Source: Acuticoccus sp. MNP-M23 (GTDB taxonomy: Bacteria; Pseudomonadota; Alphaproteobacteria; Rhizobiales; Amorphaceae). From it: 64,000 nt of DNA. A program made the position numbers and the translations under genes. The stretch lies in the NCBI RefSeq assembly GCF_031195445.1, contig NZ_CP133480.1:2844501-2908500 (forward strand), in the 5' to 3' direction. The stretch's first letter is position 1. Every line of letters begins with the position of its first letter. The notes beneath the pieces were generated by a model. It was not told where the DNA came from. It saw only the letters and a list, made by a program, of their open reading frames with translations, and did no database searches. Positions 29,514-34,966 of this stretch are shown in pieces.

Positions 29514-29689
29514 GGGGCGTTGGGGCGTTCTGTCGGGGTTGGCGGGGCAGCGTCGGCCGGCCAGTTTTCGACCCGCTAGCTCCGCGATACTATGATTTGC
29601 GACAACGAGTCTGACCGATTGCGATCTGGACAGAGCGGTCAGGGCGTTGCAATTGGTGCTTGGAACCATTCGAGCGTGGGAGAGGTGCG

Positions 29690-30268
29690 TTGAGCACAGC
29701 TGACGAGACCGGACCTGGAGACGAACATTCGAGGCGCGACTTCCTCTACATCGCGACCGGGGCCGTCGCCGCGGTGGGTGTCGCAGGGATTGCGTGGCCG
29801 TTTATCGACCAGATGAACCCGGACGCCTCATCCGAGGCGCTGGCATCCATCGAGGTTGATGTTGCCAACCTTGGGGTCGGCGAATCGATGACGGTGATGT
29901 GGCGCGGCAAGCCGGTGTTCATCCGCCGCCGCACCGAGCAGGAAATCGAGGCTGCCAGGGAAACCCCGATGTCCGCGCTGGCGGACACCGAGGCGCGCAA
30001 CCCCAACCTCGGCGGCGCGGCAGACGAGCTGGCGACCGACGAGAACCGCGCGGCGCCCGAGAACGAGGCCTGGCTGGTGATGATTGGCGTTTGCACGCAC
30101 CTTGGCTGCATTCCGCTGGGCACCTCCGGCGACTTTGGCGGCTGGTTCTGCCCCTGCCACGGCTCGCACTACGACACGGCCGGCCGTATCCGTAAGGGTC
30201 CCGCTCCGGAGAACCTTGCCATTCCGCCTTATGTTTTCGCCTCCGACACTTCGATCGTCGTCGGCTAA
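29690..30268 (+). CDS. petA: Cytochrome bc1 Rieske iron-sulfur subunit
   Basis: A 192-residue [2Fe-2S] subunit. A Tat signal-anchor is seen: [11 protein letters not shown] then [15 protein letters not shown]. The head domain carries CTHLGC at about 135-140 and CPCHGSHYD at 154-162, giving two Cys and two His ligands plus the stabilising disulfide. A proteobacterial insertion ([20 protein letters not shown]) precedes them. The start is a TTG at 29690 with GGGAGAGG just upstream; a TTG 30 bases earlier has no such site and no ATG fits. First gene of petABC, it transfers electrons from quinol to cytochrome c1 on the periplasmic side. Confidence 0.95.
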
Positions 30269-30291
30269 CCGAATCTTCAGAGAGGACAATC

Positions 30292-31662
30292 ATGGCCGGA
30301 CACGGGACTTCGTCCTTCCAGCCGCAGAACAAGACGGTCCGCTGGATCGATTCGCGTCTGCCCCTGTTTTCGCTTGCTCACGAGCAGGCCATCGCCTTCC
30401 CGACGCCGAAGAACCTCAACTACATGTGGACGTTCGGCGCGATCCTGATGTTCATGCTGATCACCATGATCCTCACGGGCATCACGCTCGCGATGCATTA
30501 TGCAGCAAACACGGAGCTGGCGTTCAATCAGGTCGAGCACATCATGCGCGATGTGAACTACGGCTGGCTGCTGCGCTACATTCACGCGGTCGGCGCGTCG
30601 ATGTTCTTCTTTGCGGTGTACATGCACATCGCCCGCGGGCTCTACTACGGCTCCTACAAGGCGCCACGGGAGATCCTGTGGATGCTCGGCGTGATCATCC
30701 TCATCCTGATGATGGCCACCGCGTTCATGGGCTACGTGCTGCCCTGGGGGCAGATGTCGGGCTGGGGCGCCACGGTGATCACCAACCTGTTCTCGGCGAT
30801 CCCGCTGGTCGGGCCTGCGATCGTGGAATGGCTGTGGGGTGGCTTCGCGGTCGATAACCCGACGCTGAACCGCTTCTTCGCGCTCCACTACCTGCTGCCG
30901 TTCATGATTGCCGGCATCGTGTTCCTGCACGTTTGGGCGCTGCACATCTCGGGCAACAACAACCCGACCGGCGTCTCGGTGAAGTCCGCCAAGGATACCG
31001 TGTCGTTCCACCCCTACGTGACGATGAAGGACGTGTTCGCGCTCGTCTGCTTCATGCTCCTTTACGGCTACTTCGTGTTCTATGCGCCGAACTATCTCGG
31101 CCACCCGGACAACTACATCGAGTTCAACCCGCTGGCGACGCCGGCGCACATCGTGCCGGAATGGTATCTCCTGCCGTTCTACGCGATCCTGCGCGCCATC
31201 CCGTCCAAGCTCGGCGGCGTGATCGCGATGTTCTCGGCACTCCTGGTGCTGTTCGTGGTGCCGTGGCTCGACACGTCCAAGGTGCGCTCGGCCAAGTACC
31301 GGCCGATGTTCAAGATCGCGTTCTGGCTGTTCGTCGTCACCGCGGTGGCGCTGGGCTGGCTCGGTGCACAGCCGGCTGAAGGCGTCTACATCGTTCTGGC
31401 GCGGATCTTCACGGCCTACTATTTCGGCTTCTTCCTGGTGCTGATGCCGGTGCTGGGGCTGATCGAGAAACCCAAGCCGATGCCCAATTCCATCTCGGAG
31501 GCGGTGCTGCACAAGGACGACGGCCTCCCCAACGCCCAGGACCAGAACTGGATCTGGGGCGGCAAGCGGCAGCGTGGCCGCAATCTGCCGCGCGTTGCCG
31601 GTGAACCCGCGGCCGGGGCGCCCACCCAGCCAGGCAGCGCTAACGCAGCGCAGAAGGATTGA
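30292..31662 (+). CDS. petB: Cytochrome b of the bc1 complex
   Basis: A 456-residue membrane protein with the eight-helix cytochrome b layout. Haem ligand histidines lie in [20 protein letters not shown] and [20 protein letters not shown]. The quinol-site motif PEWY is present in [17 protein letters not shown]. The C-terminus is about 25 residues longer than usual, a polar tail rich in Arg, Gly and Pro ([16 protein letters not shown]). It lies 23 bases after petA and five before petC, one operon. It oxidises ubiquinol and passes electrons across the membrane. Confidence 0.97.
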
Positions 31663-31667
31663 TCGCA

Positions 31668-32522
31668 ATGACGATGATGAATTGCGGCGCCTTCCTGCGC
31701 CGCGCCGCTCTGGCAACCGGCATTGCGGCTTCGCTAGCACTGCCGGCGGCTGCCGCCGAGGGCGAGCAGGTCCACATCCACAAGCACGAATGGTCGTTTG
31801 GCGGTGTGTTCGGCCAGTACGAGACCGCGCAGCTCCAGCGCGGGCTCAAGGTTTACCGCGAGGCCTGCGGCATCTGCCACTCCATGCAGCTGGTGGCGTT
31901 CCGCTCGCTGACGGACGAGACCGGGCCGCACATGTCCGAGGAGGCCGCCAAGCAGATCGCCTCCGAGTACCGGATCAGCGACATCAACAACGAGACCGGC
32001 CAGCCTTTCGAGCGGCCGGCGCTCCTGACCGACAACTTCCCGCCGCCGTTCCCCAACCGGATTGCGGCGGCTGCAGCCAACGGCGGCGCCTACCCGCCCG
32101 ACTTCTCGCTGCTGGCGAAGGCGCGGGCGGACCACCGCGGTTTCCCGGGCTTCATTGTCGACGCGTTCGCCAACTACCAGGAGAACGGGCCGGACTACAT
32201 CTACTCGCTGCTGCAGGGCTACGAGGAAGTGCCGCACGGCGTGGAGCCGGTGCCGGGCAAGTACTACAACCCCACCTTCCTGGCGGGGGACTGGATCTCC
32301 ATGCCGCCGCCGCTGCGCGACGGTCAGGTGACCTACACTGACGGGACGCCCGAAACGCTGGAACAATATTCCGAAGATGTCGCGGCGTTCATGATGTGGG
32401 CTGCGGAGCCGAAGCTTGAGCAGCGCAAGGAGATGGGCTTCAAGGTCATGATCTTCCTCGCGGTGCTGGCGCTGCTGCTCTACCTGACCAAGCGCAAGCT
32501 CTGGCGCAACATCGAGCACTGA
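31668..32522 (+). CDS. petC: Cytochrome c1 of the bc1 complex
   Basis: A 284-residue periplasmic haem protein anchored by a C-terminal helix (MIFLAVLALLLYLTKRKLW). Signal peptide: RRAALATGIAASLALPAAAA. The haem c site is CGICH at 67-71 (YREACGICHSMQLV), and the axial Met is probably in DWISMPPPL. AYPPDFSLLAKARADHRGF is the conserved PPDLS-like block. Start is the ATG at 31668 with AAGGA upstream; a TTG nine bases earlier is less likely. It passes electrons from the Rieske centre to soluble cytochrome c. A terminator follows. Confidence 0.97.
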   Translation: MTMMNCGAFLRRAALATGIAASLALPAAAAEGEQVHIHKHEWSFGGVFGQYETAQLQRGLKVYREACGICHSMQLVAFRSLTDETGPHMSEEAAKQIASEYRISDINNETGQPFERPALLTDNFPPPFPNRIAAAAANGGAYPPDFSLLAKARADHRGFPGFIVDAFANYQENGPDYIYSLLQGYEEVPHGVEPVPGKYYNPTFLAGDWISMPPPLRDGQVTYTDGTPETLEQYSEDVAAFMMWAAEPKLEQRKEMGFKVMIFLAVLALLLYLTKRKLWRNIEH

Positions 32523-32533
32523 TGCTCTGACGC

Positions 32534-32566
32534 AAAGCCCGGCCCCCGCGGCCGGGCTTTTTCTTT
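32534..32566 (+). terminator. Rho-independent terminator after petABC
   Basis: AAAGCCCGGCC, a short C/G loop, GGCCGGGCTTT and a T-rich tract (TTTTTCTTT). A strong GC stem 12 bases after the petC stop. Confidence 0.9.
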
Positions 32567-32713: not shown

Positions 32714-34966
32714 ATGCGAACCGGCCCCGCGGATTTACCGACCCGTCCCCCGGATGACGCTGCGCCGGGCGCTTCCGGCAGCGGTGCACCGCGCGGTATC
32801 GCCGCCGCCCGGTCCGATTTGGCAGCCGCCCTGGTGACCCGGAAGGCGCTGCGCGCAGGCACGCGCCCGGCAGGGCACCCCCACTCACACGAGCCGACCC
32901 CCGCCAACACATCCGATACGCAGAGCGGCACGCCACCGGCTGAGGGAACGCTTTTTCTGGTGGTGGGGCCGAGTGGCGCCGGCAAGGACACATTGATCGA
33001 CGGCGCCCGGGCCGCTCTTGCCGGTGACCCCGCGTTCGCCTTCGCGCGGCGGGTGGTGACGCGGCCTGCCGAGGCCGGCGGCGAGGCGCACGAGGCGATG
33101 GACGAGGCCAGCTTTGCCGCCGCCGAACGCGCCGGAGCTTTTCTCGCAAGCTGGGGCGCTCACGGGTTGTTCTACGGGGTCCGCCAGGCCGTGCGCGAGG
33201 CGCTGGGTGAAGGCCGCAACGTGGTGGTCAACGGCTCGCGGCGGGAAATCGCGGCATTCGAGGCGGCGGCCGCGAGGGTTGTGGTGCTCTCGATCACCGC
33301 GCCGCCGGACATTGTGGCAGCGCGGCTCAGGGCGCGCGGCCGGGAGGATGCGTCCGCGGTGGCCGCGCGCCTGTCGCGTGCCGTGCCCATCCGTGCGCAC
33401 GGCCCGGTGATCGAGATTGCCAACAACGCCACGGCCGATGTGGGGGTCGCGCGTTTTCTGGCAGCCCTTCTGGGGGCAGCGCATCTGCCGCTCACCCTTG
33501 CCGCAGCGCCGGTCAGCATGGGCCGCGAGGCGGTGTGTTTTGTGGCGCGCGAAAGCCTGTGCGTGCGCGCCGGTCAGCTGGGTGCGGCCGAGCGGGTGGA
33601 TGTGGTCGCGGGCAGCCGCAGGGTTCGCGCCCGGCTTGCCCTTTGCGACGCCGGCACGCTGGTGGGGCCGGGGGAGGCGGCACTGTCCGCTCCTGCGCTG
33701 GAGCGGCTCGGGCTCGCGTCCGGGTCTGAGGTCACGGTGCAGCGCGCCCGTGCCGCCGGCAGCCGGGATCTCCTGCGGGCCAAGGTGGCTGGCTGCACGC
33801 TGGAGACGGCCGAGATCGAGCAGATTGCGCTGGATCTGGTGGCCGGCAACTACAGCGAGGGCGAGACCGCCGGATTTCTGGTCGCCGCCGCGCAGAGCCT
33901 CACCACCAGCGAGGTGATTGCGCTGACGCGGGTGCGGGCGGCGCTCGGCAACGCTCTTGTGTGGGACCGGCCGCTGGTTGTGGACAAGCACTCGCTGGGC
34001 GGCGTTCCCGGAAGCCGGATTTCGATGATTGCCGTGCCCATTGCCGCTGCCCACGGGCTTTTGGTGCCGAAAATATCGTCGCGCGCGATCACCTCGGCAG
34101 CCGGCACAGCGGATGTGATGGAGTGCGCCGCCCGCGTGGATCTGACACGGGCGGACATGGGTGCAGCCATTGCAGCCGCGGGTGCGACCATCGCCTGGAA
34201 CGGGCGGATCAGCCACAGCCCGCTGGACGATGTGATGAACGCCATCAACCGCCCCCTCGGCATCCGCTCTGCCCTTCTCGACGTGTCGTCGATCCTCTCC
34301 AAAAAGCTTCTGGCGGGCGCCACCCATGTGGTGATCGACATTCCGGCCGGGCGAGGCGCCAAGACCGAGACGCGGGCGGAGGCGGCAAAGCTGGCGACCC
34401 TGTTCGAGACGGTCGGGTCCGGCGTCGGCCTTACCGTGCGCGCGTTCGTGACCGACGGGAGCCGCGTGATCGGCACGGCGGTGGGGCCGGCGCTGGAGCT
34501 GATCGACGTGCGGGCGGTGCTGGAGGGCGCCGCGGGCGCCAGCGCTGCGCTGCGGGAGAAAGCGCTGGATTTTGCCGCTGAAATGCTGGCGTTCGATCCG
34601 TCCGTGCCGGTTGGAACCGGGCGGGCACGCGCGGAATCCCTTTTGGAAAGCGGCGCGGCACTTTCTGCCTTCGAGGCGATTGTGGATGCGCAGGGGCGGC
34701 GGCAGACGGCAACGCCGGGGCCCTTTGTCCGCACCATCTGCGCGAGCCGCAGCGGCACGGTGGCGGGGATCGACGGTCCGGCGCTGGGCGCTCTGGCACG
34801 GGCCGCCGGTGCGCCGGAGGACAAGGGTGCCGGGGTGCGCGTGATCGCGCCGCCTGGGGCTCAAATTGTTGCAGGTGCGCCGGTGCTGGAGGTGGTCGCC
34901 AGCCATCAGGACGCGCTGGACTGGAGCCGCACCGTCGATGGCGAGGCGGTTGTCAGCATCGGCTGA
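32714..34966 (+). CDS. Fusion of PhnN-type ribose 1,5-bisphosphokinase and AMP/thymidine-phosphorylase-type enzyme
   Basis: A 750-residue fusion. Residues 1-78 are a Pro/Ala/Gly-rich leader without recognised domain. Residues 79-255 match PhnN (ribose 1,5-bisphosphate to PRPP): Walker A GPSGAGKDT at 85-93, WGAHGLFYGV, VVVNGSR and ARLRARGREDASAVAARLSR. Residues 275-750 match the AMP phosphorylase branch of nucleoside phosphorylases: DKHSLGGVPGSRIS (424-437), VPKISSRAITSAAGTADVME, THVVIDIPAGRGAKT, and the C-terminal AGAPEDKGAGVRV. AMP phosphorylase yields ribose 1,5-bisphosphate, exactly the PhnN substrate, so the fused enzyme could make PRPP from NMPs. This coupling is inference; thymidine phosphorylase activity is an alternative. 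Start: ATG with GAAGGG upstream. No phn genes are nearby; the gene stands alone after the petABC terminator. Confidence 0.88.
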   Translation: MRTGPADLPTRPPDDAAPGASGSGAPRGIAAARSDLAAALVTRKALRAGTRPAGHPHSHEPTPANTSDTQSGTPPAEGTLFLVVGPSGAGKDTLIDGARAALAGDPAFAFARRVVTRPAEAGGEAHEAMDEASFAAAERAGAFLASWGAHGLFYGVRQAVREALGEGRNVVVNGSRREIAAFEAAAARVVVLSITAPPDIVAARLRARGREDASAVAARLSRAVPIRAHGPVIEIANNATADVGVARFLAALLGAAHLPLTLAAAPVSMGREAVCFVARESLCVRAGQLGAAERVDVVAGSRRVRARLALCDAGTLVGPGEAALSAPALERLGLASGSEVTVQRARAAGSRDLLRAKVAGCTLETAEIEQIALDLVAGNYSEGETAGFLVAAAQSLTTSEVIALTRVRAALGNALVWDRPLVVDKHSLGGVPGSRISMIAVPIAAAHGLLVPKISSRAITSAAGTADVMECAARVDLTRADMGAAIAAAGATIAWNGRISHSPLDDVMNAINRPLGIRSALLDVSSILSKKLLAGATHVVIDIPAGRGAKTETRAEAAKLATLFETVGSGVGLTVRAFVTDGSRVIGTAVGPALELIDVRAVLEGAAGASAALREKALDFAAEMLAFDPSVPVGTGRARAESLLESGAALSAFEAIVDAQGRRQTATPGPFVRTICASRSGTVAGIDGPALGALARAAGAPEDKGAGVRVIAPPGAQIVAGAPVLEVVASHQDALDWSRTVDGEAVVSIG

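Follow-up and report, generated by a model that had tools for sequence, protein, structure and literature searches.

The window, which is the whole stretch of 64,000 nucleotides analysed here, includes a gene for a 750 aa protein that joins a PhnN-type kinase to a nucleoside-phosphorylase-type enzyme. The protein is predicted to be bifunctional, and its ancestral form, encoded in an operon with nadC (quinolinate phosphoribosyltransferase), most likely cleaves NaMN made by the adjacent NadC, so that three activities would form a cycle; we hold this reading with modest confidence.

The PhnN-phosphorylase fusion in the window

The features of the window referred to below are:

29660-32522, + strand: petABC (Rieske protein, cytochrome b, cytochrome c1), a neighbour outside the system
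32534-32560, + strand: intrinsic-terminator-like hairpin 3' of cytochrome c1, between petABC and the fusion gene
32714-34966, + strand: PhnN-phosphorylase fusion gene (750 aa, with an uncertain start codon and low confidence for residues 1-74)
32945-33469, + strand: PhnN ribose-1,5-bisphosphate kinase domain (residues 78-252; TIGR02322)
32966-32989, + strand: Walker A motif GPSGAGKD (residues 85-92)
33497-34930, + strand: NMP-phosphorylase-type domain (residues 262-739; NF003338 and fold match to 4ga5)
33935-33937, + strand: Arg408, specific to the fusions (almost all standalone and archaeal enzymes have Met)
33983-34015, + strand: phosphate-binding loop DKHSLGGVPGS (residues 424-434; K84/H85/S86 of thymidine phosphorylase, TP, correspond to K425/H426/S427)
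34076-34114, + strand: SSRAITSAAGTAD (residues 455-467; S113/T123 of TP correspond to S455/T465)
34199-34249, + strand: segment 496-512, with N496, R498, H501, N509 and N512, adjoining TP base-binding residues

The frame at 32714-34966 (+) is open without interruption over 750 aa, as the initial annotation had reported, and most congeners keep it at 56-63 % identity; the fusion is therefore not an assembly artefact. Both of the domains proposed earlier were recovered above the NCBIfam cut-offs, namely the TIGR02322 PhnN equivalog at residues 78-252 (182.3 bits, cut-off 156) and the NF003338/PRK04350 'thymidine phosphorylase' subfamily at residues 262-739 (507 bits, cut-off 434). The AMP_phos equivalog TIGR03327 was not reached (346 bits, cut-off 535). 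All of the motifs quoted in the initial annotation are present in the window protein, and its catalytic residues were retained in both halves on alignment. In the PhnN half, the residues that are invariant across 26 distinct fusions (see below) are mostly those of Escherichia coli PhnN, and the E. coli catalytic motifs GPSGxGKD, R/TR, NxSR and RGRE are conserved in these fusions. The C-terminal half has the nucleoside phosphorylase II fold (TP/PyNP/AMPpase) and its phosphate site, examined at the positions of K84, H85, S86, S113, T123, S186 and K190 of E. coli TP; the phosphate-site residues common to AMP phosphorylase and TP are retained in nearly all fusions. Structure prediction with AlphaFold2, a check that had been suggested, gave two confident domains (mean pLDDT 84.8), with residues 1-74 at pLDDT <50 and not covered by the match in most relatives. 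The best PDB fold was the AMP phosphorylase of Thermococcus kodakarensis, 4ga5 (TMt 0.86 for the phosphorylase domain). Judged from the sequences, the 750 aa fusion with the catalytic residues of both halves intact is real.

Co-transcription of the fusion gene with petABC was considered and is unlikely, because a strong terminator-like hairpin lies between them. The next gene after the fusion gene is a convergent glycosyltransferase gene. The neighbouring genes scanned, at about 20.9-43 kb of the window, include no phosphonate genes, in agreement with the initial annotation, and a role with C-P lyase was rejected on this basis. The fusion gene is present in a single copy in the window genome, where a candidate second PhnN was merely a weak match, under the cut-off.

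Relatives, nadC linkage and nicotinate genes

The protein is not a one-off. Scans of public genomes, plasmids and whole genomes recovered 26 distinct fusions, from Alpha- and Betaproteobacteria, alongside 53 standalone bacterial phosphorylases. The fusions form a single clade (SH-aLRT 98) that branches within the standalone bacterial PRK04350 'thymidine phosphorylase' family, and database copies of the fusion carry the annotation 'phnN'.

The upstream gene was scored wherever a fusion from outside the window's genus group had readable upstream DNA, and for G491, the one congener of the window organism with a nadC-linked fusion. At each of the 20 loci scored, of which 19 are distinct, the gene immediately upstream is nadC, in the same orientation and 2-50 bp away, whereas nadC was found by none of the 26 standalone phosphorylase loci with wide flanks (Fisher p = 4e-13, which ignores relatedness). 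The nadC-linked fusions include those of Roseovarius, Mangrovicoccus, Labrenzia, Paracoccus, Poseidonocella, Limibaculum, Pacificitalea, Variovorax and Paraburkholderia. The NadC encoded in the operon scores above the nadC equivalog cut-off and has matches among solved QPRTases. Most alphaproteobacterial copies of the fusion have TAXI-TRAP uptake genes beside them, and the Variovorax copy has a TctC uptake gene. In Bordetella, Bug27 and Bug69 are quinolinate-binding proteins, and Variovorax has been noted to carry nadC and phnN next to bug27 (PMC11452294).

FRG-domain genes also recur beside the nadC-fusion operon in both Alpha- and Betaproteobacteria (L006 1090-1851, L051 11556-12323, L052 15993-16757, L124 6398-7297 and L127 11531-12304), with matches to PADLOC PDC-S15 candidate defence models for two of them. 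Two distant genomes have homologous SIR2-like genes immediately after the fusion (L098 6325-7524 and L125 7482-8684).

Near nadC-fusion operons are genes for NicC (570 bits to 5eow), an enamidase (358 bits to 2vun), a BpsR-type regulator (169 bits to 6pcp) and xanthine-dehydrogenase-type subunits. BpsR senses 6-hydroxynicotinate (PMC6837509). When BpsR, enamidase, NicC or AA_synth was counted as a nicotinate marker, markers were present in 8 of 18 fusion loci and in 0 of 26 standalone loci, a comparison for which the Fisher test ignores relatedness. The remaining 10 fusion loci have no marker within the flanks examined, and this counts against the proposed cycle. Genome-wide, all eight operon-type genomes tested have an enamidase or NicC, though one enamidase is broken. 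Enamidase was found at identities of at least 70 % in G491, G411, G852 and G054 (the broken gene is in G359), and NicC at identities of at least 60 % in G788, G862 and G734. NicC was found at this level in none of 30 standalone genomes searched; however, three of seven standalone-phosphorylase genomes tested also have an enamidase, so enamidase alone is a weak contrast.

Most standalone phosphorylase genes are flanked by a short PRPP-synthase paralogue and/or an MBL-fold gene (L053, L054, L055, L064-L068 and others), once together with a phosphoketolase, and this arrangement is probably another module for ribose 1,5-bisphosphate (R15BP) and PRPP. In L099 (6731-9613) and L100 (8580-11434), separate phnN and phosphorylase genes are head to head with a PRTase-domain gene adjoining, and both genomes also have an enamidase.

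In the tree, the window's genus group is nested among the nadC-linked fusions; the simplest reading is therefore that linkage to nadC is the ancestral state and that this branch lost it. The window copy would then most simply be a derived branch, descended from the nadC-operon form, with nadC since lost. The fusion is present in seven of eight genomes of the genus, the window's included (order-wide sample). Searches of the window genome for nadC and nadA found neither, and pncB and a PRPP synthase are present. Across the genus (G000 and its congeners), nadA is absent, nadC is absent except in G491, and pncB is present; these organisms are thus predicted to be NAD-precursor auxotrophs. The window genome also encodes an enamidase that is 79 % identical to the Limibaculum enamidase. 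Its gene (L164 8443-10543) adjoins one that is similar to the ferredoxin-NADP reductase gene at the side of the fusion in L005 (no Pfam match at 1e-8).

Substrate pocket, proposed cycle and other readings

All 26 fusions, the window's included, carry the replacements M408R, L501H, I/V509N and E512N/T/V. The archaeal enzymes and almost all standalone ones have M, L and E at positions 408, 501 and 512 and I, V or L at 509; the nearest standalone relative, L012, is intermediate. The comparison uses sequence columns mapped to TP, where the segments containing 408, 501, 509 and 512 carry base-binding residues. As four AMP-type positions are replaced in all of the fusions, AMP is probably not the substrate. 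The initial annotation had proposed AMP, and the missed TIGR03327 cut-off also argues against it, as do the ties of the relatives to nadC and, often, to nicotinate catabolism. A site that has lost an acidic residue and acquired Arg and His would be suited to an anionic base, for example nicotinate. A plain thymidine phosphorylase is unlikely: Y168 of TP is replaced, F210 of TP corresponds to K550 in the fusion, and both K550 and the GGVPG insert are common to the fusion and AMP phosphorylase.

The cycle that we infer, with its substrate and direction, would run as follows. The C-terminal domain would phosphorolyse a nucleoside 5'-monophosphate to a base and R15BP, and the N-terminal PhnN domain would convert R15BP and ATP to PRPP and ADP. 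NadC would convert quinolinate and PRPP to NaMN, CO2 and PPi, and the phosphorylase half would act on NaMN and Pi to give nicotinate and R15BP. R15BP would be common to the fused halves and PRPP to PhnN and NadC, and use of NaMN would close the cycle, the net outcome being the decarboxylation of imported quinolinate to nicotinate for catabolism, with the ribosyl phosphate serving repeatedly as the carrier. Purine nucleoside phosphorylase cleaves nicotinamide riboside in a favourable phosphorolysis, and the same type of reaction with a pyridinium nucleotide should likewise be favourable. The idea put forward earlier, that the product of one half is the substrate of the other, is supported, and we regard coupling of R15BP to PRPP in some form as highly probable. 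That NaMN is the substrate of the phosphorylase half is an evenly balanced proposal. We suggest slightly more tentatively that NadC and the fusion form a closed catalytic cycle, with PRPP as the reusable carrier, and so constitute a new route of quinolinate degradation for catabolism. The operon nadC is the sole nadC of the genome in G359, G411 and G054, and a NaMN phosphorylase would therefore compete with NAD synthesis there, which speaks against the proposal.

In the window's genus, with nadA and (one exception aside) nadC missing, the full cycle cannot run by known enzymes, and in the window genome the partner reaction, the quinolinate step, is missing or different. With its pocket residues unchanged, the window copy may cleave the same nucleotide, which might be NaMN supplied by PncB or by nucleotide turnover; of all parts of the account, this one is the weakest. 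It probably still converts a nucleotide of the NaMN kind to base and PRPP.

The adjoining nadC would also be accommodated by base exchange, in which the phosphorylase half uses AMP, CMP or UMP and PhnN makes PRPP, which NadC then consumes to form NaMN for NAD; the fusion would be a dedicated PRPP supply for quinolinate salvage. Quinolinate may indeed be the NAD source in G359 and G054, which have neither nadA nor pncB, and in G288/G139 separate phnN and phosphorylase genes are by a generic PRTase-domain gene. We nevertheless consider base exchange unlikely, as a PRPP synthase is present in every genome tested, the AMP-type residues are altered in all fusions, and the neighbouring NicC, enamidase and BpsR are left unexplained. 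That the fusion is the only source of PRPP was rejected, as all 16 genomes tested have a standard Prs; nor is the fusion needed for general PRPP supply, given the normal PRPP synthase.

General recycling of AMP to PRPP, without the archaeal RuBisCO, was the original reading, and it would be the likeliest one if the window genome, which has no nadC, were considered alone. The closest solved enzyme is an AMP phosphorylase, with which the fusion shares its phosphate-site residues. However, the AMP_phos cut-off was missed, the conserved AMP-type residues are replaced in the window protein as well, and the window branch is nested among nadC-linked fusions, so that we find this reading distinctly unlikely. 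The phosphorylase half might instead run in reverse, making NaMN and Pi from nicotinate and R15BP for NAD salvage where pncB is absent, as it is in G359, G411 and G054. This is very improbable: PhnN would then consume PRPP, the window's genus has pncB and the fusion together, and synthesis of NaMN from R15BP should be uphill because the pyridinium N-glycosyl bond is a high-energy one.

Relation to known enzymes and significance

The archaeal AMP (NMP) phosphorylase TK0352 of T. kodakarensis (4ga5) has the same fold and phosphate-site residues as the C-terminal half, and the expected product is likewise ribose 1,5-bisphosphate. The fusion differs in being bacterial, nadC-linked and joined to PhnN, and in the replacement of all of M408, L501, I509 and E512. 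E. coli PhnN, the ribose 1,5-bisphosphate phosphokinase, has the same catalytic motifs, but in the fusion the kinase is joined to an enzyme that would make its substrate, and its neighbourhood showed no C-P lyase genes. The standalone bacterial PRK04350 'thymidine phosphorylases' belong to the same family as the C-terminal half, but are without PhnN or nadC and keep the AMP-type residues.

To our knowledge, no NaMN phosphorylase of this kind has been reported. Both domain types are known; what appears to be new is their combination, the operon with nadC and the cycle predicted here. In the PubMed Central literature searched, no paper joins PhnN with thymidine phosphorylase and, within the text available from that search, no description of a PhnN-phosphorylase fusion was found, although an earlier mention elsewhere is possible. 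The available text of one paper covering both AMP phosphorylase and PhnN describes no fusion. The nadC-phnN-bug27 neighbourhood of Variovorax and Jezberella (PMC11452294) has the same gene set, nadC, 'phnN' and TctC, as Variovorax SRS16, where 'phnN' is a 717 aa fusion; in the portions of that paper available to us, phnN is taken for a plain kinase gene, with no mention of a phosphorylase half.

If the proposed cycle is correct, uptake of an NAD precursor would be linked to catabolism via a ribosyl carrier that regenerates PRPP, and an enzyme of cofactor biosynthesis would have been recruited into catabolism. Ribose 1,5-bisphosphate would have a bacterial role outside C-P lyase, and the orphan 'phnN' genes beside nadC would be explained and shown to be misannotated.
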